Shown here: piece by piece, positions 4,169-40,861 of the stretch
Numbering within the stretch: the first letter of the stretch is position 1
How the letters are laid out: every line of letters starts with the position of its first letter
NCBI GenBank assembly: GCA_028753945.1
Contig: JAPNXP010000001.1
Location: 6,500,501 to 6,564,500 of the forward strand
From: Hexactinellida sp. DTS-2022
Taxonomy: Eukaryota; Porifera; Hexactinellida
Reading direction: 5' to 3'
Length of the DNA: 64,000 nucleotides
Program-made: the position numbers and the translations under genes
The notes under the pieces: model-generated
Databases searched by the model: none
Told to the model about the DNA's origin: nothing
What the model saw: the letters and a program-made list of their open reading frames with translations, nothing else

Positions 4169-4504
4169 GTAAAACCGGGTCCCTGTGACCAGAGCTTTGG
4201 TATCCACGTGGCACAGCTGGCTAACTTTCCCAAGGAGGTTATTGAGAATGCCAAGAGGAAGGCAGACACGCTAGAAGCTTCCACTATCAGTCTCCCGCTG
4301 CTGGGAGATAGCGAAGTGAGCAAGAGAATCAAACTGGACAAGAGAGAGGGAGAGGAGATTATAGATAGAGCCATAGAAGAGGCGAACCAGCTCCGAGACG
4401 ATGGAGAATCAGGGAAGCAGAGAATAACAGCTCTGCTCAGTCAACTCAATGAGAGCGATAACATGTATGTAAAGTTATTGATAGAGAGAGCCAGTTCCAG
4501 TTAA
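4169..4504 (+). CDS. MSH2: MSH2, last coding exon
   Basis: C-terminal exon of MSH2. After an acceptor (CTGCTCCAAG, ending 4168) it encodes [20 protein letters not shown], a strongly conserved MutS block just after the ATPase. A Lys/Glu-rich helical tail follows, ending in [12 protein letters not shown] and a TAA at 4502-4504. In the family this tail supports dimerisation with MSH6/MSH3. The exon joins in phase 0 to the exon ending at 1356 across a 2.8-kb intron that is almost wholly repeats. There are no frameshifts or stops. The transposon stack begins 117 bp downstream, probably within or just past the 3' UTR. Confidence 0.95.
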
Positions 4505-4620
4505 TACTTGTATTAATTAGCATACATTAAATTCAATTTAGAAAATCTTTCTTGTTTTACTTCAGCTGTTAAACTTGTAGTTTTTGTTCCCAACATTGAT
4601 TGACATGTCTATATACACGT

Positions 4621-4628
4621 GTTACAAC
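4621..4628. repeat. Target-site duplication (left) of the outer P/hAT-like element
   Basis: GTTACAAC, repeated exactly at 26525-26532. The copies sit immediately outside the inverted ends CAGGGCTTTTCA and TGAAAAGCCCTG, 21.9 kb apart. Confidence 0.9.
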
Positions 4629-4796
4629 CAGGGCTTTTCACGAGTCATTTGATTGACTCGATAACTCGCGAGCACGGTACGTGGTATACCGATGTATAAT
4701 GAGGTATAACCAATTATACCAAATTAGTATATACCATAGCCTACTCTATATAAGGCCTAACAGTAGATGTACCATGGATGCGGTAATAGATGGACT
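4629..4796. repeat. Left terminal inverted repeat of PL-2
   Basis: It pairs with a right repeat that has been split. The outer part lies at about 26397-26524, a MITE and a fragment follow at 26154-26396, then 26024-26153, then a 6.75-kb Ginger-like insert, and the inner part lies just before 19262. The outer 12 bp and the GAGCACGGTA block are conserved. The right copy has an extra expansion of GAGTCA/GACTCG motifs. Confidence 0.75.
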
Positions 4797-4985
4797 TTAG
4801 GAATAGAATAATCTTATGGGAGTGAACATAAAAGCACTTAAGTGCATATCAAGTCAAATATTTCCCAACCAAGTATATCTGTGAAGAATAAACCCATACA
4901 TTTATTTGGAATTAATATATTTTAATGATAATAAGTAAACCTACATACAAAATACAAACATATAAACTACTGTAATACACAACAC

Positions 4986-5056
4986 CATAGCATTCTATAC
5001 ATAAGGCAATGGCGCGCTTATAAATTTTTGGACCAGGGATTGGTTAGTTACTTAGA
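4986..5056. repeat. PL-1 left terminal inverted repeat
   Basis: 71 bp, identical base for base to the reverse complement of 9004-9074. Confidence 0.95.
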
Positions 5057-5515
5057 TTTAGTAAAATATTTTTTTCCAATTTCTTCTTCGCTAATTGGAA
5101 ATTTGGATATGTGATTCATTTACCCCACCCCTTATACCCTTTTAAAGCATCTTAAGACTATAATATTTCTGAATCCATCCTCGAATGTCTCACATTTACG
5201 TTTTTATAGCTTTCTAATATTCCACTAATATTTCAGAAATTTATGCCAATACGATATAATAAGTTTAGTAATCATCCGTCAGGAGATGATATGTATATAG
5301 TACGATGTAAATGCCAAATAAATAAGGTCTATTTTTAGAGATACACAATCATTGATTTAATCAAATTGCACCATTGAATTTGTTACATTTTTATATCCAC
5401 CCATAATTGTTGTATACCAAATTTATACGAATACCATAGAAGTTCACTTTTCAGTGTAACTTTCAATTTCCACTACCTACATCACCTACCACCACTTATT
5501 TTGACTATTCGGATG

Positions 5516-8515
5516 TCCTGTCTTGTCCCAGGCTGCAGGTCGAACTATTTAGGAGAAGAAACTACTTCAACTTTCAATTTTCCCAAAGATGAGCAATTAC
5601 GCGAACAATGGTTCAGAGCCATTCCTAGACCAAGGAAGGATTATGAAGCCAACAAACACATGAAGGTATTCAATTGGAAATTTCCCATCCTTAAATATAC
5701 TCAATTTCATTTTTATATTTAGGTATGCATACACCATTTCAGAGAAGGAGACATCGAGAGATCACACCAATATTTTGATGGACAGCGAACTATGACTGTT
5801 CCCCGCGATAGAGTCTCTCTAAAGAAAGGTGCGGTTCCAAGCATATTTCCTAACTGTCCTTCCTACCTATCTGATTTGAATTCAAAACCGAGGAGACTTT
5901 CAAAAGATGACAAGGAACGATTGATGATGGAAACTGCCTACACTCAGAGCTTAGCTGATAACGAAGAAACAGTAGATAAGTTTCTTATTCATTCATTTTC
6001 TGACCTTCTCTCTAAGTTGCATTTGATTGATCTCAGGAACGGTTGGATTTCTCACCATTCCGAGGACAATTCTTTGCACTTTTTAAAAATTCTTATTACT
6101 GATTCCGGACCTATAATTGAACGTTCAGTTTTAATTGACCATGATTTGTTTATCAAAGCATTTGGCATTAACAATATTCCGATTTGTATTTCAAGAATTT
6201 CAATTAATGACACCCGCCAAATTGAAAGTTCACTTTATGAGGTAGATAACTTTTCCACACCAACTCATAGTGAACACGCATCTGAACATTCGATAAACAA
6301 TTATGTCAAATTAGCTATCAATGAGCTACAAAACGCAATTAACCTCGTTGAATGTGACACACTAGATCTAGACGTAACTGACAATCTATTCACCTGTACT
6401 GAATCCATAAAAATCTTGTTGTATTTTATTGTAGGACAACTGACAAATTTGATCCATTCAAAAAATAACCGGCGGTATGATATATTAACTCAAGTATTTT
6501 CACTTAAAATTCACGGATTATCACCAGCATGTTATAGAAATATCCAGTCATCTAGTTGTTTAATTTTGCCACATGAGCGAAACTTGCTTCATATTAAAAA
6601 CACTCTGGGGATAGATGGTGACTATTTTCGAATTCTTAAGGAAATAACCTCTAAGTTTAGTGACAGGGAACGTCATGTGATACTTCAAATGGATGAAGTT
6701 CATATACGTAGTGATGTATCATATAAAGGAGGTAGGATTTTGGGCGCAATTGATAATCCTAGAGATCCTGCAACAACCGTCTTTTCGCTGATGGTTTCAA
6801 GTTTAATGAGAAAGTTTTCAACCATCGTGCGCCTCATTCCTTTGGGTTCTTCTACTGCTGCTTATTTACATCCAATAATTACCAAAGCTATATTTGATAT
6901 CGAGACTTGTGGTCTCTTTGTCGAAGCTATTTGTACTGACAACTATCCGTTAAATGTTAACCTTTATAAGTTATTTTCAGATGACGGGAAAACATTACAT
7001 CCTAAGGTTGTACATCCTTGTAATCCAGATCGTAATTTTGTATTATTTTTTGACATTGTTCATATTATCAAGTCAATTCGTAATAATTGGCTGAATTTAA
7101 AAGATTTTGAAAATACTTTTATATATCCCAAGTTTGATGAATGTACAATTGAAACCTCTAAATCCCTAAATCTACCTTGCACTCAGTTAAGAATTTCTAT
7201 ACCTACTGCCAACATTATTTTGAATCCCAGCCAGCTGACGGGGTCTAGATATCCTACAATATGTTATGCAGCATTTGACGATCTTCGGACCCTGTTCAAA
7301 GCTGACAAATTTTCTATTATCAAGAGGGCCCCAAAATTAACATCAAAAGCATGTTGGCCATCTCAGTTAGAGCGACAGAATGTGAACTTGGCTTTGAGAA
7401 TTTTTCATGAATCTACAGCTGCAGGTCTTTCTAGTTTCATTAACCATGCTAACATTGGTAACTCCCTTCAAACTGTTGATTTTCTTAACTTCATAAATCA
7501 TATTTGGAGCATCTTTAATGTTAATTGGGTCGGGAAAGACATACGTTTCAATAATCCATATCTAGCCCCACTCCACTATAACGACGAAAGATTAGTGTTT
7601 TTGGAAAATGTTGTTAAATGGCTAGATTGTTGGAGAGCTATTCCATCAACTAGGGGTAAGCTTACACCTCAAACGTTTACCAGTTTCAGACACACTTGTC
7701 TGGCTCTTCCATTCTTAATTAATAGATTAACCTTAGAATGTGGTTATGAATATTTGCTGACATCCCGAATACAAAACGACGCATTAGAACATCACTTTGG
7801 ACTTTATCGCCAAATGTCTGGGTCCCACTATAACATATCATATTGTCAAATTTTAGAAAGTGAGCGTAAACTTCAGTTATCTAACCTTCTTAAGTTTCTA
7901 TTTGTTGAACAAGCTGGTACCGATACGATATGTATTAAAGAATATTTAAAAAGTTTTGCTGATGATAATGTCGAAGAAAGACATTCAGAAATTGATTTAG
8001 AATATTTTACAGATGAGTTGCTTTACATTACTAACCCTATATTTGATAACTCTCAAATTGAATGCCTTAACTATATTGCCGGGTATGCAGTATTTTCTTA
8101 TTTTAAACAAACCTCTGAATGTTCAGTCTGCCATGATTTTTTGACTTCTCCAAAAGATATTCAAATTAATAACGATACAGGGTTTTCATTAATTAATCTG
8201 CTCGATAGAGGTTCCCTTAAATATCCATCAGAAAATGTTTATCAATCTGTCGTAACAATGTACGAAATATTTATTAAGATCGATAATCATCCTAATTTAA
8301 GTCGTCGATTTTATGAGGGACCTTGCCGTAGAAAATTAGTCGACATTTCATTGCTCGAAATTGAAAGAAATTCCAGTGAAATATGGAGGGGGTGGTGTAT
8401 ATGTATGGCATCAAAATGGGATATTCTTAAGAAATTGTTAACAACAGTGGCTAATTGCATTTTATCTAAGAAAGTTAAAAATTTTAATAACATTGTAGTT
8501 GGTCGCGATAATTAA
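5516..8515 (+). CDS. THAP-domain P-element-like transposase (intact, two exons)
   Basis: Exon 1 (5516-5665) and exon 2 (5723-8515) join across a 57-bp GT-AG intron to give a 980-residue protein. Start and intron were chosen because they reconstruct a complete THAP zinc finger. That finger has MSCLVPGCRSNY (first two Cys), VCIHHF (Cys and His, created by the splice), and the family's AVPSIFP box. THAP fingers in P transposases bind sites near the element ends. The RNase-H-like catalytic candidates are Asp374 in QMDEVHI, Asp456 in TDNYPLNVNLY and Glu739 in DALEHHFGLYR. The last resembles the conserved block near the C-terminus of P/THAP9 proteins; the three residues were assigned by resemblance, not alignment. 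There are no stops or frameshifts, so it could be active. It cuts and pastes its own element and possibly related ends. Confidence 0.93.
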
Positions 8516-9074: not shown

Positions 9075-11181
9075 ACAACACATATACGAAACACAACATG
9101 TCTTGGAACTCCTCTCTCCTATCTCTCTCTCTCTCTCTCTCAAACTTTACAATTATGTAAACTTGATAGCGCGAAATCTAAGATACAAATATAAAGAAAT
9201 TAAGTACTAACAACAATAAATATTCTGTAATGGTAAATAATAATTCATGAGAATTTTTTCAATTTACGTTTATCGATACCTATTTGAAGCACAGAGGAGT
9301 TGTAGTTTTTAATTTTATTGGCAAGAAAACAATTAGCAGCAGTAAAGATTAACTTGCTCAAAATACTCCAACTGTACACATCGCAATTAACACAATTTGA
9401 TTTCCAGATAGCAATATCATCATCATTTTCCATGTATATCAAGGTGAGTTCTACTAATAACCTTCTAGAGGGACCGTCTACAAGCAAAGTCAACAGCTGA
9501 TTATTATTTTCTATTGCAATCATTATCTTCCATAAAGTTATAACTGAAGTAAGCACAGGCTCGGACGGATACTTAAGTCCGCCACGATCTGTTAATTGTA
9601 AGAACTTAAACTCAGTATGTGATTCAACATCAAAAACAAATTCTTTATCATAAGTTAGAGTATCAGTGCACACATGGCATTCCGGAGATCTTTTTAAGAA
9701 CTTATGGACCGTATAGCCTGCGATAAAAGCTAACGACTGAAGGATTTGTTGAGAGCATTCAATGGATGATAGATCGCCAATTTCATCAAGAAAAGGCATT
9801 ACAGCTATTCCATCATCACTAGATGTATCAGAGGGGGTAGAAAAAGACTTTACAAATGTCTGAATCGTTTGGAAAGCGTCTTGTTGGTCTGCAAACATGT
9901 TTAATATACTAGAAAGTTTCAGACGACGCTCGGTTTCAAGAATCTGAAGGTAAGAAATATGGTAATTCGAACCCGACATCATACGGTAGAGTCCAAAATG
10001 GTGTTCCAACGGGTCAGTTTGTAAAAAGGATGATAATACGTAGGAAAAGCCACAATTCTCAGTTAGATGGTTAGTTATAAGTGGTAAGGCAGTACAGGCG
10101 TATCTAAAACTAGTATACGTTTGCTTACTCAATTTACCCGTTTTGTCTGGTAAATCCTGCCAAGCATCTAGCCAAAATACTATACGTGTCAATAATAAAA
10201 ATCGTTCATCGTTTAAGATCAACGGTCTTGAGAGGCTATCATTTAAACGGGTCCCTTTGAACGGCGTATTGATATTGAATATTTTCCAAAGAGTAAGAAG
10301 GATACTTACGAAACTAGATGTATTATTACGATACTCCGGACAACGACTTTCATTTTGGATTTCAAGAGCAGATAGTGTAAGTTCGCTAACAACCTTCAAA
10401 ACCAATTTGACATTTTGCCTTTCTAAACTAGATGGAAAACAAGCTTTTACAGTCAAGTGAGGGGCTAGTTATGCTAAACTATATCGTTCAGAATTGTAGA
10501 GAAGGCGTACATCTTGAAAGGAAGCAGAATGGACACTGAGGGGGTAGCTACATTTATCAATGTCAATATGTTCAAAATTTGGAAAACGAAATGTTTTATC
10601 AAAAAAATTTCTGATTTAACCAATTATTGCGTATACTTTTCAATATATGGACAAAATCAAATGTAAGGAAGAGAGGTCTATTTTCATCAAAAGGGTGGGG
10701 TACTCTAGTTTCCAGCTTTCCACTAAGAGAAAACAATTTAAACAAGTTTACATTCAATGGGTAGTTATCGGTAGAAATCATTTGGACCTTTAAACCACAA
10801 TGCTCAATATCGATTATACAAGATTTGATAGTGGGAAAGATTTTTTTAGCTGAGATAGATGCACATGGTAACAAACGGGTAATGCAAGACCATTTCCTAT
10901 GCAAACTAGACACCATAATCGCGAATACAGTTTTCGTCGGATCCTCAGGGTTCAAATTTGGTGCAAATATTTTCCCGCCTTTATAAGCAATATCAGATTT
11001 AACATGGATTTCATCCATTTGAATGATTACATTTTTTTCCTCGGAACTAAAGCAAGATGTAGCCTGGGTGAGATAAGTGCAAAAATCATTTTCAAGACCG
11101 AAGGAAGAATACAACTTATCTAATGTATGGACATGTGGTAGAGTAATACATTCTAAACCCTGTAGATAGATATAACAAGCT

Positions 11182-11600
11182 ACGAGTGTTATCTTAGCGG
11201 CGGATTCATCGGCGGATTCGCAGACCTCACGTTTATGCTAATAACTCAAAAAGTTTACGCTGTACGTGAAAAATTTTCACATCAGCGGGAAGATGAAAGT
11301 TGTGACAACCCATATATAATCCCAAAATGTCAAAATTCCTTAAGATGACTCAGCAATTTTCGCTCAAATTTAGACCTCGGTTTTTCCATAATAACTCAAA
11401 AATTATCCATCAAATCAAATTTTCCTTTTAATCACATGTCTATCTCACCTATGACAACCTGTCATGCAAATTTCAAAACAAAATATTCATTTTTGAAAAA
11501 ATATTATTAACATAAAATTTCACTAAAATCGGCTTACAATGATGATTTCCAATATCCATAATGTTGATATGTTGTCATTTAATAATACTATTGATAAGAA
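11182..11600. repeat. NOF-1 left terminal inverted repeat
   Basis: About 419 bp starting ACGAGTGTTATCTTAGCGG. The outer 350 bp match the right repeat almost perfectly; the inner 60 bp have small indels. Confidence 0.92.
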
Positions 11601-12294
11601 TGTATTTGATTTGCGTCAGTGTTCACAGGAATTAAAGTTTTAGGTACCTCTGAAGAATAATTAATGACCGCATTCCTAATTATATCAGGCTTAGTGATTA
11701 CTTTCTGTAAACAAGCTTACATAATACAAACAACTTCATATATACAAATATATTTGGAATGCAATATTCATTAAGAGAATAGAATCAGACATATAAACAA
11801 TATTATGGTTACTACAACAATGTTAGGTATTTTAAGCATCTCCAGGTTTTTCCATTTCCATAATCTGCGTAACTTCTATCTGAATGATCTTACTTGTGGC
11901 CATGTTCCTTCTCTCCAAATATACGTACTATTTGCCTTTAAAGAGGGTGAATCTCATATAAATGTAAAGCAACATATTATCTCAGAATATGACTTACCAA
12001 CGAGTGCATGTTATTAAAATGGTGACAAATATTAGTAATGCTTTATATAGAAAGATCGAGATAACCAAAGTTATTCTAAAAAAGTAAGAGAACTACTTAG
12101 TAGAACATGGAAATAAAGAGAGAACTAGTTTATTGGTTTAGGATTTAACACATTAATGATAATATGCATTAATTCTTTTCACTGATACGATATTAAAAGG
12201 GCGCCATTAAATATAACAGGAAAGTACATCTACAAATTGTGGTAAAACTATTGCAACTCTTCTAAAACTCTGCCTTGTTCAATTTAAAAAATAA
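11601..12294. other. Non-coding 3' part of NOF-1
   Basis: AT-rich sequence between the left inverted repeat and the stop of the transposase/OTU gene. No gene or further repeat is recognised. Confidence 0.5.
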
Positions 12295-14316
12295 TTAACT
12301 ATTATTTTCGAATTTAACAGAAATAATAGGTTCATAATGATTCCCAATATTTCGTATATATATCCCATTTGGGGTTGGCGCCTTCATTAACTCTTCAAAA
12401 GTTGATCCATTCCCTGAAAATCCAATCCAACGTGTTCCCAACGGAACCAAGAATACCCAGATATCTATATTAAATAACAAAGCAGTTGCAAAGAGTTCAA
12501 GATCAGTAGCCCATTTCCCACTCTTCCTCATTCCTGTTTTGTTGACCCAGTCTTGTACATTTCGATAATTACCCTGCGTATAAACATATTTTGTGCGTAA
12601 ATATTTATTGCAACTCATACTTAGGTCACCTAGCATATTATCAATTATTAGCTCCCTAAACTCTGCATGGAAATCTTGACTACCAGTGATGAGATAAGAA
12701 ATTGTCGAGAAATAGCAATTTCCATCGCCAATTATATATTGAGTCAAGTTTGGCGAATAACTAAATAAACTTTCTTCATTATCTACAATATCATTATAGG
12801 AGTACGGTAACTCCTCGCGAAAGTGAAACTTCCACTTTTTACATGTAGAAATCTGCCAGTCTGTATGTGGCGGACGAAAGCTTGGTAGTACATATCGTAT
12901 TAGCCCCGTCTCAACTATTTCCTCATCTGTAATTATAGAGGCCACTCGCATTACCTTTGATGCAGTTTGCGTACGTAAACTAGATAACTTTTCGCATTTT
13001 CGTGGGACAAATTTACGCTTAATTTTACATATTTTATTTTTCTTCTCAACTTTTTTCTTCTTAAATGTTTGAAATTCATATGATTTAGGTTGTAAATAAC
13101 CGCAATACACTTTCTTTTTTCGTGACCATTCTTCAACACTTTCCTCTTCCAAACTATTTCTTACTCTTTTATGACCTTTAAATACCTTATTCGCTCGCGG
13201 GTGAAAGGCAAATTGAAACGCTGATAACCTACTTACTATACCAGGATACAACAATTGTATCAAATCTCCAGGCCTCAAATTAGTTTTGGATTCCAAAATA
13301 TTTAACTTCACAATACGCATCCAATTCTCCACAATAGCGTTGCTAAAGATGCTAGTCTTGTTCTTATCCGCTACACTAATAGGTCCTAAGATTATTCCAC
13401 TCCATAAAGGTAATATAGGTAGGTAGAATGTTAACAAGTATTCTATAAGCTCCGGATTATAACAAGGATTTGGATCTGCATTTTTTCCTGGATTATTGTT
13501 GATCCAAGATTTGCAATTTTTTGCAATATTTACAAAATGTTTGCCGAAAGGGGATTTTTCTCTGTATGTTTTACTATCCTTGTTATCAATAGCAATATTA
13601 TTATCGTCCATATGTTCTTCAACCAAATATTCATTAGTCTCTGAGGAGTTTACGGAATCATTACTAATGAATGTTTCTAGCAAATGAGTATGTGTCTTTA
13701 CTATTGCAGTTAAAGAACTACTCATAAATACAATGCATAAAGATTGGAATAAATTATTGATACTTGTCATTTCAACAGCGCGTACAATAAATCCGATACT
13801 ATGTAAAAACAGTTTTCTCACTTCTTTTTGTAGTTTAAATTTTTTATTTATATGAAATCCTATGCTGTGCATTAAATGAGCCGAACATAAGTGAAGAATT
13901 ACTTTAAAGTCCGTCTCATTAACTGCAGAATTTACATCTACCATATTCCAACACTTATGGAGATAAGTATCTATATCACACTTGAGAAAAATACTACAAG
14001 AACTGTGAATCAAAACCCAGCTGAAATCTATTTCAACTTGTGAAATGTTTAGATCGCCCAGTATTTTCTTTGCATCAAGGGACCATTTGTGCAAAAAATA
14101 ACTTATTTCAGCACTGGTGTGTCCTGAACTAATCATTTCTGCTAGTGGAATTGGACTAGTGGAGTAAGTAGGATGTCTTACAGTTAGAGCGTAATAGAAT
14201 ACTTTCTTTAGTGAGGGTTCTATTTTCCTAACAATTGATCCTGTGGCATCCAAGTGAAGAACAATTCTTGTATCTTTAAACAATTTCAATATTTTGATTT
14301 GATCTTCAGTGTACAT
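12295..14316 (-). pseudogene. NOF-like transposase C-terminal half with OTU protease domain
   Basis: A 673-residue frame. The N-terminal part has a DDE-type core: LHLDATGSIVRKI, then VEIDFSWVLIHSS, then LCSAHLMHS, and later AIVENWMRIVKL. The Asp/Asp/Cys-His/Glu layout resembles MULE-type transposases. A basic stretch (EEWSRKKKVY...KKKKVEKKNK) follows, perhaps a nuclear localisation signal. The last 170 residues are an OTU-type cysteine protease, with GDGNCYFSTISYLITGSQ holding the Asp/Cys and NHYEPIISV the catalytic His. The upstream reading frame (14286-16031) is the same protein. A 1-nt deletion near 14318, relative to the second copy at 28.5 kb, separates them. A programmed -1 shift is possible but less likely than a simple lesion. 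Confidence 0.82.
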
Positions 14317-16031
14317 ATGTATATAAAAGGATTATGACTTAGTGACTGTATGTAACCTCTAACATGAAGGCCAATAACACTATTTCTATAATACTGTTGT
14401 AAGCTAATTAACTCAGTCCAGTTATCATTAGAATACCTCTGTAAACTAGACAAATCAAATTTAGCTTTTCGCAGGACTGCAGAACTTCTAACCTTATTTA
14501 GGTTACCATAATTAAACGCTAAGTTTGTGTTCTCTACAGAATCAAATTGATCATAGAAATAAGCATTTACAGATGTATCTGCTACCCCTCTAGCTACTTC
14601 TAACCTATGCGAATGTGATAAATTTCGTGAGTGCACAGTTGTATTATCGAAATGCTGTTCAGATAAGGTTCCATAAGCTACATACTCCACAATAATATTT
14701 TCATCAATTTTACACTCCAACGGCTCTTTCTTTATTACAAATGTAAATTCAAAACAATCTTTAAACTTACACACTGCTTTAGCTCTAAAAAAACAGCTAT
14801 TTTGTTTTCTACTACTAAGTTTATTAACCTTTTTGTATTGAAAAGAAAGAACACATACAAAATTTCCCTCGATTTTTGAACTAAATAAATTGGTCCAATC
14901 TTTAGAAAATACTACAGAGTCTCCATGAATTAGTGTAATACTTTTCCATTCCATTCCACTTAGCAAAAATTCACCACAGATTTCCTCACTAAACATGGAT
15001 TGTTCAACTATGATTTCATTACCCAGAGTACTGTCGTCATCTACTGATGGCACTAGCAATTTGGACTCAGGGATATTAGAGGTAATAACAATTTCAGGTT
15101 GCGGGTCATCGGTAGATGACAATACCGGGACTTGTTGATTTGAAGAAGAAGAAGAGGTATGATGCAATTTTAGGCACAGAGATTCATGAAATGAGCTTAA
15201 AGTATCTGAACTTTCTCGACAGGCTAGAATAAAGCTAGTGAATAAATCTAGTTGTTGCACTGTGATAGCTATATATGAATTCCCGAATAGCTCTAATATC
15301 CTACAACTAATGTTTTCAACTAAAATCCACGCTTCCACTAAGTTACAATTTCGCCTGATTAGTCGAATCCATTGCATTGACTCCATTAGACAGCAACTAA
15401 ACTTTTTCGACTGGTCGTGGAGTTTGTCATCCACTAGCATGAACTCACCACTAACAAGCGGACACTCTAAGCTGAAAAATTTCATTGCATCTAACCATAG
15501 ACTATTATTACAGTTTATGAATGACCAAAAATGGCTATCAGTCCTCCCTGTTTGGGGAGGAGGAGAAGCTATCTTAGACATGAGACCGTAAAGCTGGCAG
15601 TCATCGCAACCAGATGCCAATAAACCTAGCAAACTGTTATTCGTTACGTCTCGCTGTAAACTAGGAAAACTGAAATCGATTTCATCCAAACTCCTCTTAC
15701 TGAGTTCTATAGTGTCAGGATATGAGCTAGCAGATACTAACTGAGTACTGATATGCTCTACTGCCAATCGGGATACATCATTGGTGATAGACTTACGCGT
15801 ACTGATCATTTGCTTTACGAGATGCTGAAAGTTTCCTCTATTCAATCTCCATTTGGAGCTGAGAGAATCGCGCTTAGTAGCCTTGTTTTTTCCAAAAAGA
15901 ATAATTGATAATTTTCCCCAGACAGATTTTGGCTTATGTTTGTCTCCTTTGTTCAAAGCATCTCTTACGCTATCGAAGCTTTCATAGCCGAGTTTCTGGA
16001 GAGCTTCCACGAATTGCTCTATTGAAGTCAT
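14286..16031 (-). pseudogene. NOF-like transposase N-terminal half
   Basis: A 581-residue frame starting MTSIEQFVEALQKLGYESFD just inside the element. It contains SVWGKLSIILFGKN, matched by SIWGKISNAVNGRN in the copy at 30.4 kb. Cys/His-rich stretches (CDDCQLYGL, CKFKDCFEFTF, FFRAKAVCKF) follow, then HSRNLSHSHRLEVARGV. The HFDNTTVHSRNLSH region pairs with HFEEKTAHSRHLSG of the second copy. No known N-terminal domain is recognised; a DNA-binding or zinc role would be a guess. The last 10 residues after NPFIY are out of frame. The true continuation is the frame starting MYTEDQIKILK at 14316. Confidence 0.8.
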
Positions 16032-16224
16032 TACTAGATGAAATAATAATAATAATTTTAATTAATCAATACATATATATATACTACTACAGTAGAACCT
16101 CGTTAGTACGAACACGGTTAATTAAGTCATTACTAGATGAAATAATAATAATTATTATAATTAATCAATACATATATATATACTACTACAGTAGAACCTC
16201 GTTAGTACGAACACGGTTAATTAA
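16028..16224. repeat. 97-bp tandem duplication with MITE end
   Basis: Two near-identical copies of a segment starting GTCATTACTAGATGAAATAA and ending CACGGTTAATTAA. Each includes CTACAGTAGAACCTCGTTAG, a CAGT-type MITE start. The second copy runs on into about 140 bp of MITE-like sequence (TTAATACGAACTCCGGATAA) with no matching far end. It lies immediately 5' of the NOF-1 gene, so it may be its promoter region. Confidence 0.8.
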
Positions 16225-16375
16225 TACGAATTTCCGGATAAGAAGAACAGTTCCACAAAATCAGGTCCTTACAATGGCGATTGAATGGGTATTACTCCGG
16301 TTAATACGAACTCCGGATAAAGCGAACAAATTTTTATTGTCCGTTGGTATCGACTGCATATAGTAATTATATTAG

Positions 16376-16420
16376 TATTCGAGGCCGGCGGTATTTCCTT
16401 CCGCCGGACTTGGGCATCCA
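16376..16420. other. GC-rich hairpin in NOF-1
   Basis: Arms CCGGCGG and CCGCCGG around a short loop, conspicuous in AT-rich surroundings. It is too small to assign a function. Confidence 0.5.
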
Positions 16421-16800
16421 AAGCTTGAAGGCCACGTTATTGTAAATTAAATTTTAGATCTGATCATTCAAAATGTAGTGGTAAAAATATCGGTCTGGCC
16501 ATGGCCTGCCCTGGTATTATTAAAATAAATAACAAAGTAGCTAAAAGGCAAATAAAATAAAAAAACTCACTTGAATTGGAAGAATCGACTTGGAGGAATA
16601 AAGAAGAGAGCAGAAAATAAATGAGAAGAAAATGGAGATGAGAAATATGCTGTAAAGTCAAAAAGATCTTTGAAAAAAAAGTGAAAAGTGTGTTTGAAAA
16701 AAATGAAATAAATTCGAAGAAAATCAAGTACACGTAGAAGAAAGGCAGTGTACCATTTATAGTGAGAAATCATTGAATTATAAACAAAGGATATAATAAA

Positions 16801-17224
16801 TTCTGATCAATAGTTATTAGACAACATATTCTACATTGTGGATATTGGATAGGTATTCAAATCATCATTGTAAGCCGATTTTAGAAAAATTTATGTTAAT
16901 AATATTTTTTCAAAAATGAATATTTTGTTTTGAAATTTGCATGACAGGTTGTCATAGGTGAGATAGACATGTGATTAAAAGGAAAATTTGATTTGATGGA
17001 TAATTTTTGAGTTATTATGGAAAAACCGAGGTCTAAATTTGAGCGAAAATTGCTGAGTCATCTTAAGGAATTTTGACATTTTGGGATTATATATGGGTTG
17101 TCACAACTTTCATCTTCCCGCTGATGTGAAAATTTTTCACGTACAGCGTAAACTTTTTGAGTTATTAGCATAAACGTGAGGTCTGCGAATCCGCCGATGA
17201 ATCCGCCGCTAAGATAACACTCGT
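16801..17224. repeat. NOF-1 right terminal inverted repeat
   Basis: About 424 bp, inverted match of 11182-11600, followed by TAACAAGCT. Confidence 0.92.
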
Positions 17225-18295
17225 TAACAAGCTGGAGAAATGAGATGAGTCTTAATGGACATAATTTGTGTTATTATATTGTATCTTCGCCTGTTTTTCG
17301 GAATAAATGTATTATCTAATTGACAGAGGATAAATTGAAGCTTAGCTAAATCTGAAGAATTGTATGTAGGTCCGTCGATACGCGCTAAATCATCAATAAC
17401 ATTATTTATATGTTTTTTGGCAAGAGGAATATTGTATGAATGTGAGTTACAACTAGAATCAGAGACAGATTTTAAGGAGATTTCATGCAGTATAGATTCA
17501 ATTTGTCGAATATCATTAATTGAATTTACCGAAAGGGGAATAATTTGTCCATGGAACCAGGCGGATACAGATAAAAAATTATTTACTTCCAGATATAAAT
17601 CGACAGAAACAGTCCTATCAACCATATTGGGTTGAATGAACCTAGTATTATGAATATCAGGATGCCATACTAACCAATTATCAGGTAATGCAATCAAGAT
17701 TAACTTAGCTTTTAGATCCTGTAAATTTCTGATAACGTACTTATGTTTCTCCTCGCTCTCAGATAGTAAGCTAAGCTGTAGTGTCTGATTCATCAATTCT
17801 TCTTCTTTTGCGTCATACGACAAGCGAGTCCGTTTGGTTGTTGTGGTTGAAGAGTAGTAGGATGGACAACCAGGAAGTAAGCAGGGAACTGCGCCGTCTC
17901 TCAACTTGGGCTTTGCACGAGGTATTTCAGTGAAAGTTCCGTCTCCATTGGGAACCTTGTGAGAAACTTCGACATCTTCTTCTCGAAAGTGCTTCACGCA
18001 TACGTTGACTACCTTCAGGTCATCAATATCCTCTCGGTGAAGAGCCCGTATCCAAGCTTGTCTGAGTTCTGGTGGATGTTCAGGCATCCTGAATATAGGA
18101 ACTCGATCATCTGGGCTGTAGTTACTTCTGCATCCGGGGGCTGAGCAACTGCTGGGCATAATGTAAACGAATCTAATAGTTAGAAGCATAGTTGCATTAT
18201 ACGTAACGTATAACGTATATATGGTACCATTATACGATAGGTGAACGTATAATGCCATCATACGTTAGAGGATCATATGGGGAAAACGTATAATC

Positions 18296-18515
18296 ATCAT
18301 ACGACGTATAACGTATAACGATTTTATACGATTTTCATCATACGTTCATTATACGTTACCATACGTTCATCATACGTTCATTATACGTTATCATACATTC
18401 ATCATACGTTCATTATACGTTATCATACGTTCATTATACGTTCATTATACGTTATCATACGTTCATTATACGTTCATTATACGTTCATCATACGTTATCA
18501 TACGTTCATCGGAGA
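18296..18515. repeat. 11-bp satellite upstream of the PL-2 transposase
   Basis: About 18 copies of CATTATACGTT/CATCATACGTT. Scattered ATACGTT or AACGTAT motifs extend to 18180 and recur in mirror order at 18905-19040. The array lies between the transposase start and the right end of PL-2, where P elements keep transposase binding sites. A binding role is inference. Confidence 0.85.
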
Positions 18516-19261
18516 GGGTTTATCTGTTCATGAGGTGTCGGCGTTTTGGAGTATCGGTGGAATTGCAGCGGGGCATTGTTTATGGAATTATTTATCATTT
18601 ATGACTATGCTAGTTACGTTTGTTGGATTTATAATAGTGTTATGTAGCGAAGAAACCTGTCGTCAATTAGCATCACTAATTGGATGGGCTTCTTCGTACA
18701 ATACGATAGCATCTTAGTTTACTGTCAGTATTTAGGATTAGTTACTATACTTTCCTTGAGAACATGTTATGACAATCTATTGCATTGACTGGAATTTATC
18801 ATGGTGAGAAATTTATTGAGAGTTATAAACCACAAATTACAAATGTTTTGATTGTTATTATTGTAAACAATCAAAGGCTGAGGTGGGCAGTGAATTCAGT
18901 TAATCGTATGATGGTATTATACGTTGGCCATTTGTTATACGATGATTATACGCTCGAACGTATATATGATCCATTATACGTATATATGGTCCATTATACG
19001 CTCCCCGAACGTATAACGTATAATCGTATAATGCATCTATGGTTAGAAGTGAATAGGAACAGTAAGTGGACAAGAAAATGATAAAATACTTAAAAAGAGA
19101 GACTAATAATCAATAGAAATTTAAACTTACTATTTAGTGGGGTAGTTGTAACAAAAAAATGTGGTTCATTATAAATAGAAAAATGGGTTAAAATATTGTG
19201 GTTGGTTAAATATTACCATCTATTAGTGCATCCCTAGTCCATAATTTCAAGGTTACTGTTA
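18516..19261. other. PL-2 5' non-coding region
   Basis: Contains scattered CGTATAA motifs (18905-19040) and AT-rich sequence, ending in the inner part of the right inverted repeat just before the Ginger-like insert. No gene is recognised. Confidence 0.6.
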
Positions 19262-19265
19262 GGCC

Positions 19266-19560
19266 TGTTGCATGATATTCTGAGACGCGTGAGATTCTGA
19301 GACATTGTATTACCAAACCATGGATGTGCTATTACAAATTATACAGTGATATTCTGAGACGCTATAAAAGGAAATTTTGGCTTATTTTTACTTTTTATTA
19401 TGAATTTAATTTAAGTTTGAGATGCGTGAGATTTTGAGACATTGTATTAGCAAACCATGGATGTGCTATTAGAAATTAAACAGTGATATTTTGAGACACT
19501 ATAAAAGGAAATTTTGGCTTATTTTTACTTTTTATTATGAATTTAATTAAAAATACTATG
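19266..19560. repeat. Ginger-like left terminal repeat with sub-repeats
   Basis: Two tandem units of about 150 bp, each with GCGTGAGATTNTGAGACATT, CCATGGATGTGCTATTA and TTTTTACTTTTTATTATGAA. The right end (25470-26019) holds the same units inverted and in higher copy number. Confidence 0.88.
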
Positions 19561-19692
19561 ATTTTCATATCATAGTATAGATAAACCCTATACTATTATC
19601 AAATTTACTATATAAGACATTTAATATATGCATTAATTGTCTTATTCATTTACAACAAACAAACAAACAAACAAATCTATTCTTATTTCGAA

Positions 19693-22600
19693 ATGAATCC
19701 AAATGAATATGACGAAATCATTCACTTTCTTCGTGAAGAAAAATATCCTGAAGCATCTCAAGCTTCACGTCAGACAAAATGGAACTACAAAAGAAGATTG
19801 TCTTCCTATTTTATTGGAGATACCAACAGACTTTTCAAGGTAATATTGACTTCCTTATTCCCCTAGACCAATTTTATATATTCCATGGTTTAATTGAATT
19901 CTCCCTTTAGAGAGTAAAACTGGAAGGCACAGAGACAGATTTGGCAGTTTCATTGCAGTCTGAGTTGGACAACATCTATGAGAAGTTCCATGACGAAGTC
20001 GGTCATCCCGGAATAAATACGACCCTACATTCAGTTCAGCAAAGATACACATGGGCAGGCGTTTCCCAAGACGTTAAAGAATATGTTAGTTAAATTATCC
20101 GGTATACTTTCCTATGTAGCACGTGGTTCGGTCATTGGCCGGACCACTTCTGTATTTTGTTCGTAGCTTGTAAGATTTACCTACCTATCTCGTTTCAATT
20201 GAACATTCTTATTTATATTATTCAATTGGGGTATTTTAATTTTGAATCATTTCAAAGGATATGATGCATTCTAACTTAATGTATACTAAGTCACCAAAAC
20301 TATTTGAACAGTATTTTTATTCCTGTTAAAAAATTACAATATACTTCTCGTTAGCGTAATAAAGCCTGCTGAATTAAACTACTCTCAAATTACTTTATCT
20401 TGTAATATATTTCTTAAATTATACACTAGTAATGGCTTTCTTATATTATTAAGGTAAAGACGTGCCATATATGTCAGATGACAGCGGCCTTGCCACCTCA
20501 ACCGCAAAAGAAACTCCAACCAATACCACCTCCTTCTAAAACGTGGAGACATATAGGAATGGACCTTATATGCGACCTCCCTGAGAGTGAAGACGGCTAC
20601 AAACACGTTCTAGTCACTGTATGCTACCTGAGCAAATATGTTGCAGTACGCCCTCTCAAGACCAAGACTTCACAAGAAGTTATTCAGAATCTGAAGGACA
20701 TCTATCTCGATATGGGATTACCTGATATTATCCAGCACGACCAGGGGAAAGAGTTCACAAGCAATGTGAGTAGTATAATGTAATACTGTTTGTTAGATTA
20801 GTGTTAATTAATTAATTCATTCATTAAAATTAAATAACTTATATAATTATCATAATTATCTATTTTACACACTAACATTATAGTATGTATTATTATTTGT
20901 ATTTATTTATTTATTGTATTTTTATTTATTGTATTTAACAGATATTTAAGGAATTCAACCAGAAATTGGGTATCGACAATCGTAGCACTCGTGCTTACCA
21001 CCCCATGGCTAACGGCTTAGTCGAAGCGCACAACAAGATTCTGAAACAGTTAGTATTTTGTAATATAATTTTAAGACCAATTTACGTATTATCCATATAG
21101 AAAACTGATTAAAATGGAGAGTCAGATAGGGGATCATTGGTCCAAACTGCTCAAACAGGCTGTGCTTGCAATGAACTCCTGCAAGAAAAGATCCCTCGGA
21201 CAAACTCCATTCAAGGTCATGTGGGGAAGAGAGTCCCGGCATCAAGACCTCTTGTCCACCATTAACGAACTGCATACCAACGATGAGGAAGACTTTGATT
21301 TGGAAGAATCGATTTTCTCAGAACTCACAGATCCACTAGATGATATCGAAGGTATAAACGACATATTTTGCCCACCTCCTGATAATCCCCTCGAAGCAGT
21401 TAGCAACATTGATGAATCTCGAACTTCAACACAGCAATCAGCTATGGACTGCATCAGTTTTGAACAACTCAAGCAGAAGATACAATATGATAAGAAAGTT
21501 AACACTAGTCGGTTTGTTGAACTGCTGACGATATTTAATTCATACATAAGTTATCACACAGTCTATCTTGTTACTAAAGTTCGATTCATTCCTTCGATAA
21601 TAATTATTTCCATAATTATTATCTCTGTAATTAGTACACCTCTAAAGAAGGGTGATAAGATCATCTATACCAACATGCCCAAAATAAAACACATGCCCAA
21701 AACAAAGAAGCAAACGAAACATCTCGGGCCTTACACGGTGTCGAAATCAACAGAAAGCCATGTTATAATTTCTCAAACAGAATTAGGAACGAAGAAGGAC
21801 AAATAGATTCCAATCCATATCACAAGACCTTACTTCGAAAGATCCTCTAGTCCCAAGAATACTAAGAAGAAAGTAAGCCTCGATACTAGCATCGGAATCA
21901 ACACCTCACAGGTAAATTCATTGTGATTGAGTTGTTATTTAAAATATAAAATAGTGTTAATAGTAAAATATTCCTTTTTTAGATGTACCAGAATCTCTTC
22001 GGATTTTCTACGGAATCTATATTTCAACACCTTAATAACTTAAAAGTAAGCTTCCCGTTTCACATCTATAGTCTAATTCATTTAGTGTAATCTTTATTGA
22101 CACTCATTGTTATTTTCGCTTTACACCTTCTCTTGACGTCAATCCAGAATATTTGTAACATTCCATAATATTTTTCTTATTACAATGTTGTCATTTGTAG
22201 GAAATCCTAAAGCAGAATATACGTGGGCAGACCTTCATGACTCCTCTACATGAAGAGCTGGACCACTTGCTATACAAAGCGCACAGCTACACTCCCAACA
22301 CGATGTTATTCGAGTATTTGGATGGCGGAAAAGAAGAGGAAGTTGTAAGTTAATTAATTAACAATGATTCATACGATAACTACAAATTACCATTTTACCC
22401 ATTTATTGTAGAAGAGAGATATTATGGAGATTATACTCGGATGGACATCAGATCTCTACCCCAGCTATACAGATACCCAACGTGCTAGATACACACACAA
22501 AGTACTGTATTTCCTGGTAAGTCAAAACTATCTACCAATACACTCATACAACTCAATTCAATTTAAATTAGTATGTTTGTTTAGTATATCAAAGCAAGTT

Positions 22601-23339
22601 GTGACATTATAAAAATTCTTATATTTATTAAATGGTAAACAAGTTAATATTTTAGGCAATGCAGTATCTAAACACAATGCTATGGGAATCATTTCACGAC
22701 GCAGTTCCGCTTCGTAATCCCTACGACACACCGATGGACCCAAGGATCACAGTGATAGATGAAAATTGGCAGCGAAGTAAATGCGATATGTTGGGGATAT
22801 CATTTGAATCAGTTTGTAGACAACCATTTAATAGCGTTGGGAAGTTACTTAGCGATTTTGAACCTTGCGATGCGGAACATATCGAAGGAGATGGTAATTG
22901 TCTATTTCGATGCATATCCAAATTAATTACTGGGAGTGAAAACAGCCACCTACATCTTCGTTCCATCATCTCTCGCTTTATCGCCAGTGAAGGAACAAGG
23001 AAACTAGGATGGTATTTTAAAACTAAACGAACGACACCGTGTGAATACCTTAGCACACAAAGACTTATGAATCGTGAATCCATTTGGGGAACAGATGTGG
23101 AAATTTATGCTGCTTCTGCTATTCTTGATGCCGATGTATACGTTGCCAATAACTTCTACACACCGAAAGACTCATTAATTCGCGAGGTGCGTTGGAGTTT
23201 ACACAGAGCCACAGATAAGCCTACAGCCATCCTTTATATCCAAAACTACTTCGACCACTATCAACCTGTCGTATCAATGCTGATCACGAATTACAAGACA
23301 TATGGAACTATTTCAGATGATGTCCAAACGATTGAATAG
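19693..23339 (+). pseudogene. Ginger-like integrase-OTU transposase gene (multi-exon, one nonsense codon)
   Basis: Exons by GT-AG and continuous phase are 19693-19839, 19911-20084, 20454-20765, 20942-21048, 21101 to about 21497, about 21635-21911, 21983-22045, 22201-22344, 22412-22516 and 22656-23339. Exons 2-3 make the HHCC zinc finger (HDEVGHPGINTTLH, then CHICQ). Exons 3-4 make the integrase core: Asp in GMDLICD, Asp in QHDQGKEF, Glu in GLVEAHNK, spaced D-58-D-35-E exactly as in LTR integrases. After GPYTVSKS an in-frame TAG at 21804-21806 interrupts the frame, which then continues as IPIHITRPYF to the next donor. The last exon is an OTU domain (EGDGNCLFRCISKLITGS, WGTDVEIYA, FDHYQPVV with the catalytic His). 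The single stop makes it probably inactive, though all splice sites survive. The intron at about 21498-21634 is the least certain. Confidence 0.88.
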
Positions 23340-23680
23340 CAGCTCACAACACTCTATCGAAAGCGCTCAAAGGCAAGGTACATCGAACTTTGTGGGGACC
23401 TCTGCTCGAGGTTATTCAGGCAACGCAATCCCAATCATGGTGAGCCCAGATTATGGAAACGTGACCTGCAACGGCATATCCCCAGTGGCGAAAGACGAGC
23501 TGTTATCTACGATCTAGGATGCAAAAGACTGACGACTAGTATGTAGGTAAATTATCTGTGGAATCAAGTGAGTTAACATTTTTAATTATCTACTAATATA
23601 CTTTATACTAAGTAATTAATTAGTTTCTATTTAGTAAGTCCACCATAGACGATGTAACTTTGTTACATCGTATATTATTA
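23340..23680. other. 3' flank of the integrase-OTU gene
   Basis: AT-rich sequence after the OTU stop, with a small hairpin (CGATGTAACTT/TGTTACATCG at about 23650). No gene is recognised. Confidence 0.45.
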
Positions 23681-23688
23681 AGTACAGT

Positions 23689-23843
23689 CAGAGGCGTAGC
23701 CAGGGTGCGGCACTAGGGGCACAGGCCGCACCCAAAAAGTTTGTGCCCACAAGAATGCCCACTAGTATAATACTATAGTGCGGAAATGCCGCAACCATAA
23801 TCCACCAGTGCCGCACCTTCATGCAGGCCTAGCTACGCCTCTG
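23689..23843. mobile_element. hAT-like MITE inserted in another MITE's end
   Basis: 155 bp with ends CAGAGGCGTAGCC and GGCCTAGCTACGCCTCTG. It is flanked by the 8-bp duplication AGTACAGT (23681-23688 and 23844-23851). CAGAGGCGTAGC ends and 8-bp duplications are typical of hAT MITEs. Its target is the TA-CAGT terminus of the next MITE. Confidence 0.88.
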
Positions 23844-23847
23844 AGTA

Positions 23848-24079
23848 CAGTGAACTCCCGTTATAACGAATTGCGGACATCGATTTAATATTTGTATACA
23901 CCTAATTTGTTATAAGCAGATTAAAATTAATTACTCAGAAATTTATGGGGTAAGAAATATCTTCGTTAAAAAGAGATTACATATATGAATTTATTTGATT
24001 ATAGTATAGTCAAATATAAGGATGTACGGACCATTGAACTTTGTTATAAGCCGATTTATATCCGAATTGGAGTTCACTG
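23848..24079. mobile_element. TA-flanked MITE (CAGTGAACTCC ends)
   Basis: 232 bp, ends CAGTGAACTCC and GGAGTTCACTG, flanked by TA, with internal CGTTATAACGAA and TTATAAGC motifs. Pogo/Tigger-like. Confidence 0.85.
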
Positions 24080-24153
24080 TAATAGTGTTTAATTTAAGAG
24101 TTTGAGTAATTTACTGTAACTTAACCTATTTTCCTTTGAGAGTTTTTTTTGTA

Positions 24154-24278
24154 CACTGGGAACCGCATTATCAGGGCGCATCAATGCGATGCTCATTCTG
24201 TTACACACATACGAACGAAGGCTAATTAACTTAAAAATTGGGGCCGATTGAATGGATATAGCTATGCGGTTTCCACTG
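24154..24278. mobile_element. TA-flanked MITE (CACTGGGAACCGCAT ends)
   Basis: 125 bp with imperfect inverted ends CACTGGGAACCGCAT and ATGCGGTTTCCACTG, flanked by TA. Confidence 0.75.
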
Positions 24279-24589
24279 TATGAATGGAGAGGATAGGGCG
24301 GCTGTGTGGGGAAAAGGAGGAGGCCCCCAAATTAATAATAGGTTAATACAATCAAAACTGATTGAAAAAATAGTTTACCTTTTACTGATCTTATAAATAT
24401 ATGTATATCTCTTTCTAGACATTCTCCAAGTTTAAGTATGATACATCAAGAAATAAGTTAATCGTTGTGATTATTTCTTTTAGCTATTATATTGGTAGGC
24501 TAGTAACCATAAGTCGTCAGAAATCTAGGAATATATTATAGAAATTCAGGAGAAATATAAAGGTTTAAACATTTTTAAAAAATCGTTTT

Positions 24590-24900
24590 ATTTCGTAACA
24601 ACAAAGTTTGTTAGAAATATTTTGTTTGTATTATTTTGTTAATCGTAATCAGATAAGGTATGTGTTGGCAACTGAAGTAATTGACACTGTGTATTATATT
24701 TTCGTTTGTGGGCAATACAAAGTTTACTTTAATTAAGTAATAGGTAACAAACTTACTTAATTAACAAGACAAAAATTTGGTTTAAAATATTTTGTTTGTA
24801 TTATTTTGTTAATCGTAATCAGATAAGGTAAGTGCTGGCAATTGACGTAATTGACACTGTCACTGTGTATTAGAATTTCGTAGGTTGGCTATGAAAATTT
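24590..24900. repeat. Two-copy tandem repeat in Ginger-like element
   Basis: Two diverged units of about 190 bp, each with TTTGTATTATTTTGTTAATC, GTAATCAGATAAGGTA and AATTGACACTGTGTATTA. A purine-rich GGA/GAG tract follows at 24980-25150. It gives a low-complexity open frame that I do not regard as a gene. Confidence 0.75.
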
Positions 24901-25469
24901 TATAACTATAAGTAATAGCTAACAAAGCTACATAATTTAAATGTTACTATTATATTTATTATTATATTATTTAAGAAAGTGGGATGGGGAGAGGAGGGCT
25001 TGGGAAGGGGAGAGAAGGGGATGGGAGGTTGAAAGATTTGGAAGGAGGGGGAAATAATAACGTTAAGGGGACTGTTGAGGGAGGGAATGAGCCGGAGGAG
25101 GAGGAGGAGGGAAGACAGAAGGAGGAGGATGTGGAGGAGGAGGGGGATATTGATGGGGTTATTATAATAATTTATTTAATGTTGTGTTTTTTTATTTAGT
25201 TTATGTATTTATTATTAGGTTTCGTTTATATTAATTTAGTATGTTTATTCTGTTTGTTTGTAATAGTTGTTTTTGTTTTACTTAATTAAAGTTGTGTCTC
25301 TACAATTTTTAGTATTATAACCATATGGTGAATTGGGAAATTAGTAGATTAGGTAAACTAGTCAAATCAGATATTATACATTGGAAATTGGGCGCTTAAG
25401 TTGCTATAATTATAAAAGAGATACTTATTGTAGATAGAATATAACATATAGTGAGACGTTCAAAACAGG

Positions 25470-26019
25470 TATCCACTCAGAAATTGTTATATACCAGTGT
25501 CTCAAAAGAATACAAAATAGCACATCTATGTCTCTGGTTTATCTTTACTATCGTCTCAAAATTGTTAGAATCTTTAATTCATAATAAAAAGTAAAAATAA
25601 GCCAAAAATTACTTTTATAGTAGTGTCTCAAAATATCACTGTATTAATTCTAATAGCACATCCATGGTTTGCTAATACAATGTCTCAAAATCTCACGCGT
25701 CTCAAAATATCACTGTATAAATTCTAATAGCACATCCATGGTTTGCTAATACAATGTCTCAAAATCTCACGCGTCTCAAAATATCACTGTATAATTTCTA
25801 ATAGCACATCCATGGTTTGGTAATACAATGTCTCAAAATCTCACGCGAATCAAATTATATTATTCTTAAATTCATATTAAAAAGTAGAAATAAGCCAAAA
25901 ATTTCCTTTTATAGCGTCTCAAAATATCACTGTATAATTTCTAATAGCACATCCATGGTGTATTTAGTGTATCAGATAGGCGTCTCAAAATCTCACGCGT
26001 CTCAGAATATCATGCAACA
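25470..26019. repeat. Ginger-like right terminal repeat with sub-repeats
   Basis: Inverted relative of 19266-19560. Four or five units contain TCTCACGCGTCTCAAAATAT and TAATAGCACATCCATGG. It ends TCTCAGAATATCATGCAACA at 26019. The sub-repeats have amplified on this side only. Confidence 0.88.
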
Positions 26020-26532: not shown

Positions 26533-27453
26533 GGCTTATCATTATATCAACCTCTAGAACATAGCATGGCACCAACTCCAGTCTGATTATCAGTAAGTCA
26601 ATATTCCACAGTGGCTCAAAATGGCGATAATGGCGGAATAGGTATTTAGGTGCATGCTAGCGATATCTAATGTATTATTTGCCAATATATTATCGACCAA
26701 AACAATTCGATTGGCATTATCAGATTTTATCTACGCCTTATATTTATATATGTATAACGCCACCATATTAATTAACAAATTTGGTATTATTGACTTACTG
26801 AATCGATTTCAGCAAACACAGCATTTTAATAGCAGCTATGATATGATTAATATTATTGACAATAACCATTTAAATAAACATCACAAATCCTATTCTAGTA
26901 TGAATGAATTTACCAACAAATCATCTTCATTTAGGCTAACTACATGTCTGTAGCTTGAAAGTATTGGGTCACTTCAGCTTACAAGACGAAGAAAAATATC
27001 ATGCATATTGTCTTGGAAATTAAACTTCCCTGAGTCTCTCTCTATACCTCCCAACTTATTTGTTGAGTGATTCAATACTTTCTTCTGTAAATAATTTCAG
27101 ACATCCTTGCTATTTACAGCACTTAGTTCAACATAATATGGTAGCAGTTTATGCAAAGATGGTGTGATGCTGAGCCAGGGAATTATTTCAGTATAACCTC
27201 CCAATGTCAAATATTCATATCATATCTACGTCACCTTTGATAGCTATATCTGTGTGTTTAGGTGGTTCATGCTACTAATCTATCACTTAAATGCAGGACA
27301 AAGAAACTGGTCTCCTACATTTCCAAAGATACATCAGTCTATGAAAATATGAATAGGATGCGCCTTCTATTATTGGAGAAAACTGGTTTATATATAGATA
27401 TTCCTTAATGTGATGGTGAACTAGTTCCACTGGAAATGTTGCGCGATCCTGTT
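26533..27453. other. Spacer between the nested stack and the second NOF-like copy
   Basis: AT-rich DNA. A 99-codon open frame at 26654-26953 has no recognisable features, and I do not call it a gene. No clean inverted repeat for the NOF-like copy was found here. Confidence 0.5.
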
Positions 27454-40670: not shown

Positions 40671-40861
40671 CAGTGTATTATACAGCCATTTGTAAATACG
40701 CTCCTAATCCTGGTCTGATGCAATTTGATACGCCTAAATGACAAATTATTGTTACCGTATAGGAGAGGATTCCAAATTTTCGCGCTCCTAAATTCCAATT
40801 TTCCAAAAATCATACTCCAAAAGGAGCGTCTCGCGCTCCTGGATAATTCCTTGATTATCAC
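40671..40861. repeat. Interspersed module with GGAGCG motifs
   Basis: CAGTGTATTATACAGCCATT ... CGCGCTCCTGGATAATTCC. Present in both arms of the foldback (also 42425-42609) and independently at 57254-57438, so it is a separate repeat captured by the foldback arm before the arm was copied. Confidence 0.7.

Follow-up and report, generated by a model that had tools for sequence, protein, structure and literature searches.

The window, a 64,000-nucleotide stretch of Hexactinellida sp. DTS-2022 (contig JAPNXP010000001.1, positions 6,500,501 to 6,564,500 of the forward strand), contains two DNA transposons: a MULE-like element on the minus strand, designated element A, and a Ginger-like element on the plus strand, designated element B. 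Their transposases are unrelated, and each transposase gene is capped at its C terminus by an OTU domain. The relationship between these two domains is the subject of this analysis. The features that bear on it are listed below (TIR, terminal inverted repeat; ORF, open reading frame; TSD, target-site duplication; aa, amino acids).

11182..17224, minus strand: element A, MULE-like DNA transposon of 6043 bp, sitting inside a P-element-like gene
11182..11520: TIR of element A, downstream end, 100% complementary to the other end
16886..17224: TIR of element A, upstream end, 100% complementary to the other end
14286..16031, minus strand: first ORF of the element A transposase, 581 aa, whose frame breaks relative to the next ORF in the window copy
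12295..14316, minus strand: second ORF of element A, 673 aa, with the DDE transposase core and the C-terminal OTU domain
12298..12885, minus strand: OTU domain of A with its N-terminal helical extension (Pfam OTU; AlphaFold)
19266..26019, plus strand: element B, Ginger-like DNA transposon of 6754 bp, placed by its ends and 4-bp TSD
20457..20765, plus strand: exon of B encoding the first two catalytic D residues of the integrase (open frame and rve match; start approximate)
20942..21052, plus strand: exon of B encoding the catalytic E of the integrase (open frame; end approximate)
22656..23339, plus strand: last exon of B, with the OTU domain and its N-terminal helical extension (Pfam OTU; AlphaFold)

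The OTU domain of B (22740-23297) scored 42.7 bits against the Pfam OTU profile (PF02338), and the domain of A gave a marginal match of 23.9 bits to profile positions 2-87 of 128, with the cut-off at 23.3. BLASTP aligned the two domains over 191 aa with 28% identity and 48% positives (E 7e-21). Comparison of the MULE and Ginger OTU family profiles gave an E of 4.4e-43 over 173 columns, extension included. By these sequence comparisons the OTU domains of A and B are homologous. A preliminary description of this DNA had proposed related OTU domains in both elements, and the motifs it quoted are present, as are the similarities upstream (WQ...C) and between the motifs (WATDLELF/WGTDVEIY).

AlphaFold predicted an OTU fold for both domains with a mean pLDDT (predicted local distance difference test) of 88.4 for A and 90.8 for B. 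VIA-align to OTUD3 returned Z = 14.4 for A (root-mean-square deviation 3.0, 130 residues aligned) and Z = 12.4 for B (3.2, 123 residues aligned). The catalytic Cys and His of the two predicted folds align, which answers affirmatively the earlier question of whether the Cys residues correspond. In A, the helix is encoded at 12835-12864, the Cys codon at 12715-12717 and the His codon at 12337-12339 (codons counted on the sequence); the corresponding positions in B are 22761-22793, 22899-22901 and 23256-23258. OTUD1 was the best Protein Data Bank (PDB) match for both family profiles (3.7e-7 and 7.5e-11), and both Cys and His of the Ginger profile align with those of OTUD1. Among the MULE and Ginger domains with letters at these positions, near-identical copies included, the catalytic Cys is present in 78/79 and the His in 68/69. 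The third residue of the OTU triad is canonically D or N and varies among OTUs. The residue two positions after the His is E or Q in 66/67 MULE and Ginger OTUs. Elsewhere in this genome, read by eye, it is N in OTUD5, the OTUD6-like gene and compact Ginger elements, D in the single-copy gene L059 and in Helitrons, and A in OTUD7.

Both AlphaFold models open with a helix (residues 8-17/18) that bears a W-Q-x3-C segment, and the mean pLDDT of these stretches exceeds 90. The extension was analyzed with models of the upstream segment alone, scored against shuffled sequences; four Ginger sequences (L024, L027, L084, and L091) were dropped with the motif one letter off. With the model built from 16 MULE sequences, L059 and 12 of 15 Ginger OTUs outscored every one of 5,000 shuffles. 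None of three compact-Ginger, two Helitron or three other OTUs (OTUD5, OTUD7, and L012) exceeded the shuffle maximum with this model. The reverse model, built from 14 Ginger sequences, gave 12 of 16 MULE sequences scores of 11.4 to 26.7 bits, with none of 5,400 shuffles exceeding 10.6 bits, and also detected L059 and L064. The upstream similarity between A and B is a real N-terminal helix shared across superfamilies. Three compact integrase-OTU elements (L013, L016, and L017) have flanking inverted repeats and an OTU domain that shows no helix segment and reads HFN at the His motif. The inverted repeats of L016 and L017 consist of 33-bp GGGCTAGCCC units and lie about 3 kb apart.

The 339-bp TIRs of element A are identical as complements over their whole length, and a 9-bp TSD, TAACAAGCT, is present at both sides. 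The 581-aa and 673-aa ORFs overlap in different frames. A 1255-aa frame is intact in 7 of the 14 other listed copies (99% identity), so the frame of the copy in the window is a broken one. The DDE core places D, D, C, H and E at residues 28, 102, 149, 152 and 335 of a 678-aa open frame, and D, D, C-x2-H and E are conserved in all six loci with alignment over all five positions (three via two alignments). Hallmarks of MULEs are an 8- to 11-bp TSD, a long TIR, and a DDE core with C-x2-H located between the second D and the E; element A fits on each count. Pfam MULE (PF10551) had no match among the window proteins at E up to 1, and element A was absent from the 150 listed matches of the genome search with this profile, all at 45 bits or more. 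Element A is labelled MULE-like on the fit of motif, TSD and TIR. The catalytic parts had been described earlier as MULE-like in one element and integrase-type in the other, and for A this stands by those three features and without a Pfam match. A second MULE-like transposase remnant (27451-28482, minus strand), 44% identical to that of A and containing one stop, lies just past element B.

Element B terminates in TGTTGCAT...ATGCAACA (TGT...ACA) with a 4-bp TSD of GGCC, and the ends could shift because AGGCCT is palindromic. By eye, the ends of the related copies L020 and L021 read TGTTGC/GCAACA, flanked by TSDs of GAAC and GAGC. TIRs and a 4-bp TSD were thus seen at three Ginger-like insertions, and none of the three carried the CCGG- or CCGT-specific TSD of Ginger1; B is called Ginger-like for this reason. 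The rve match of B (E 9.5e-7, 29.5 bits) falls under the curated cut-off of 32.6. Splicing of the exon that ends at 20765 to the one that starts at 20942 yields a Gypsy-like integrase core with D-58-D-35-E spacing (hand count), as the preliminary description had it. Near the end of the frame at 21114-21803, LGPYTV was noted by eye as a possible GPY/F motif, and Pfam gives no match there. A splice-acceptor-like AG precedes the last-exon frame in B and likewise in L020 and L021.

OTU matches in the genome number at least 150 (150 of 440 candidates were scored), versus 17 for Ulp1/C48, 14 of them below 31 bits, so OTU is the expanded one of these two in this genome. A tree was calculated from 97 OTU domains of adequate length, chosen by hand and with near-identical copies among them. 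It left out hits of fewer than 100 profile columns (including host OTUD7, L002/L010), loci L009-L016, which repeat L001-L008, and the second OTU that L015 contains. Superfamily labels came from transposase positions picked by eye, 68 of 111 for MULE and 35 of 150 for Ginger, and an unlabelled OTU hit (60/104) is for this reason no sign of an absent transposase. The MULE-type OTU clade (support 0.852) comprises 46 domains, 23 with a MULE-like transposase upstream and none with a Ginger integrase. The Ginger-type clade (support 0.957) comprises 36 domains, of which 19 are labelled Ginger and none MULE. In viral contigs, 32 stretches fit a pattern for relatives of the MULE OTU profile, and none was confirmed. 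Locus L012 has a 407-aa frame (4327-5547, plus strand) with a PHD-like zinc finger segment, read by eye, followed by an OTU domain; neither a host orthologue nor an element was identified for it.

Elements A and B lie less than 15 kb apart, which would suit a recent exchange of the domain between them or their near kin at this locus. The low identity of the two domains, the spread of near-identical copies of A and of B over many contigs, and the unmixed MULE and Ginger clades all speak against it. An exchange was not recent, because the two OTU types are unmixed among the sampled domains; for these domains the tree rules out recent or local exchange, and we give that explanation almost no credence. 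By the same separation, it is without bearing that A and B share a stretch, and their neighbourhood here is incidental.

The relation to host OTUs was analyzed in maximum-likelihood (ML) trees with OTUD5, OTUD7, human OTUD1, an OTUD6-like gene and L012. The OTUD5 and OTUD7 of this genome were named from PDB matches (3.8e-54 and 1.4e-50), and the OTUD6-like gene is presumed to be such from a motif. Transposon OTUs, Helitrons and L059 formed one clade apart from the hosts, with a support of 90.5/89 (SH-like approximate likelihood ratio test, SH-aLRT/ultrafast bootstrap, UFBoot). The grouping of MULE, Ginger, compact Ginger and L059 without the Helitrons had 87.2/89. The approximately unbiased (AU) test rejected seven of nine host placements, and the stricter Shimodaira-Hasegawa (SH) test two of nine. 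In the tree with OTUD1, AU rejected MULE with OTUD1 (0.034), Ginger with OTUD1 (0.037), MULE with all hosts (0.016) and a split of hosts with Ginger (0.011). Without OTUD1, AU rejected Ginger with the hosts on full columns (0.009) and core columns (0.003) and MULE with the hosts on full columns (0.016); SH rejected both full-column placements (0.046 and 0.047) and neither core one.

These tests bear on the view that the A and B OTUs came from different host families and are alike only as all OTUs are. The GDGNC and H-Y motifs are general to OTU cores, the host sampling is thin, and the SH rejections are few, all of which leave room for this view. The AU rejections of MULE with OTUD1, of Ginger with OTUD1 and of MULE with all hosts, together with a shared N-terminal helix that was not found in OTUD5, OTUD7 or L012, make separate host origins improbable. 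The OTU tree called for by the preliminary description gave a transposon clade that, with L059 inside it, excludes OTUD1, OTUD5, OTUD7 and the OTUD6-like gene, at moderate support and with few hosts; this comes near to the outcome which that description would have taken as support for exchange.

Several branching orders fit the transposon OTU clade. Topologies that pass AU include Ginger monophyly (0.155 and 0.184), MULE with L064 (0.68 and 0.78), and MULE, Ginger and L064 to the exclusion of compact Ginger (0.68 and 0.78). The OTU L064 belongs to an element whose integrase is of the full Ginger1 type (L111); it groups with MULE in the core tree (94.5/93) and with Ginger in the full tree (54.1/60). 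Its placement in the core tree points weakly to a possible transfer from Ginger to MULE.

Capture from one unsampled, extended host gene by both superfamilies independently would account for the common helix without any transfer between elements, and L059 is the sort of gene this would call for. L059 (C17:1020061-1020699) is an OTU gene found as a single copy in the genome search, with the W-Q-x3-C extension and a host-like Asp after the His (HYDVV); the 2.35 kb upstream, the only side covered, gave no transposase match. However, L059 shares 35-38% identity with its best genome matches, has a long branch, and groups with compact-Ginger OTUs (89.5/95), so it may instead be a domesticated transposon OTU; it also lacks the E or Q after the His. 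Capture of this kind is an unlikely account, though one that keeps some weight. The gene at L059 and L112 (G000:C17:1017600-1020700) is a domesticated copy of a transposon OTU or else a relative on the host side.

We favor, by a modest balance of probability, a single transposon-associated lineage for the OTUs of A and B, shared long ago across unrelated transposases and descending separately since. The marks of this lineage would be the added N-terminal helix with W-Q-x3-C and, at the second residue past the catalytic His, E or Q instead of D or N. The domain could have entered both superfamilies by an old element-to-element transfer or through its capture from a single shared source, and entry would predate the diversification of the OTU carriers of each superfamily in this genome. 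Afterward, purifying selection would have acted on each OTU as it was inherited along with the transposase that carries it. Several results weigh against a single lineage. Few host OTUs were compared, with OTUD3, YOD1 and OTUB outside the trees. Ginger with all hosts passes AU in the tree with OTUD1 (0.054), where SH rejects none of five placements (p-SH 0.053-0.186), and without OTUD1 MULE with the hosts passes AU on core columns (0.055). The MULE plus Ginger clade is moderately supported (FastTree 0.576 with 97 domains; 0/37 on core columns), and Helitron OTUs placed beside MULE or Ginger pass AU (0.17-0.55). In the extension test, 3 of 15 Ginger and 4 of 16 MULE sequences fell below the shuffle maximum, and the OTUD6-like gene had nine upstream residues only, so the test says nothing on its helix. 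L059, inside the transposon clade, may be a host gene.

The ratio of nonsynonymous to synonymous substitution rates (dN/dS) in the OTU domain was 0.09-0.29 in the 8 of 14 pairs with unsaturated dS. In the other six pairs dS was saturated, some of the values obtained come close to saturation, and the value of 0.25 for the sole near-identical pair reflects very few changes. Because dN/dS is well below 1 in the measurable pairs, the OTU is maintained for its protein. OTUD1, OTUD3 and OTUD5 are ubiquitin-removing enzymes, and host ubiquitin control of the transposase, suggested earlier as a shared target, would be a common object for both domains. By analogy, the transposon OTU may deubiquitinate in cis and shield the transposase or the transposition complex from ubiquitin-dependent degradation, a proposal we rate at nearly even. 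Sparing the transposase from the proteasome in this manner would be the most economical role. Two points count against it: catalytic competence of the transposon OTUs is not certain, because the canonical Asp/Asn after the His is E or Q, and transposon OTU domains are described as untested for activity in the relevant passages of PMC9741609 (2022). The same passages propose a similar protective role for Helitron VTD proteases.

At the break site, the OTU could act on the ubiquitin of chromatin or repair factors rather than on the transposase. Break repair is under ubiquitin control, and the discussion of Ginger1 in Bao et al. 2010 (PMC2836005) proposes a break-site repair role for its OTU and Ulp1 domains. 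A repair-factor target and a transposase target would fit the present data alike, and this role is considered rather doubtful. A processing protease that cuts a transposase polyprotein would fit OTU enzymes as cysteine proteases and the position of both OTUs C-terminal to the transposase; the closest match of both profiles is OTUD1, which cleaves ubiquitin, and polyprotein processing is given little chance.

Around these elements, the P-element-like gene was recognized from Pfam matches (THAP, E 1.9e-13; TNP-like_RNaseH_N, E 8.8e-11).

9245..18261, minus strand: P-element-like gene remnant with a THAP domain and a TNP-like RNase H, interrupted by element A

Its parts lie at 9245-11114 and 17224-18261 (minus strand); the THAP frame stops at 17224 and the RNase H resumes from 11114. 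In the 22-kb stack of the preliminary description, A is inserted in the P-element-like gene and B is a neighbour of A rather than nested with it. Elsewhere in the window, 911-bp arms, perfectly complementary and separated by 1391 bp (40034-43246), mark a recent long-TIR or foldback element, and a tandem array with a 31-bp period extends over about 890 bp (53080-53968).

OTU domains are described in Ginger1 and in Helitrons in the sections of Bao, Kapitonov and Jurka 2010 devoted to them (PMC2836005) and in Helentrons in those of PMC4067079, and a table in Dupeyron et al. 2019 (PMC6446971) lists the Hydra MULE MuDR-6_HM with an ovarian tumour gene. Element B resembles Ginger1, as there described, in its Gypsy-like D-D-E integrase, introns, TIRs, 4-bp TSD and C-terminal OTU, and differs in its TSDs, which are not CCGG or CCGT, and in the extra N-terminal helix of its OTU. 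Element A and MuDR-6_HM share a MULE-type transposase with an OTU; in the table row for MuDR-6_HM the TIR entry is 'none' and the TSD entry is 'not indicated'. Helitron and Helentron OTUs likewise sit on a transposon replication protein in the accounts of PMC2836005, PMC4067079 and PMC9741609, and in this genome are represented by L109 and L110; these lack the W-Q-x3-C segment and form their separate clade (99.9/100). L109 (C12:4504300-4511500) and L110 (C1:13949600-13955000) encode Helitron-type helicase proteins with the OTU after the helicase. Host OTUD1, OTUD3 and OTUD5 share the fold, Cys and His with A and B but have D or N two residues after the His in place of E or Q, and the extension was undetected in the OTUD5 of this genome. 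In the open-licence papers searched, a scope that did not include Repbase, neither a relation between MULE and Ginger OTUs, nor a common helix, nor a separation from hosts was found.

Ubiquitin-type proteases recur as fusions to unrelated transposases, as the text of PMC2836005 on Ginger1 describes. OTU domains were already known from Ginger1, one Hydra MULE and Helitrons; a shared extended OTU lineage across superfamilies was not found in the papers searched, and it suggests that accessory domains are exchanged across transposon superfamilies. The extended OTU could conceivably be a portable, transposon-specific deubiquitinase module, directed against the host and passing between superfamilies in the manner of plasmid addiction or anti-defence genes, a tentative analogy that we hold as somewhat short of likely. 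A and B have recently multiplied with the same extended OTU and would provide a direct test system for whether host ubiquitin curbs transposases.

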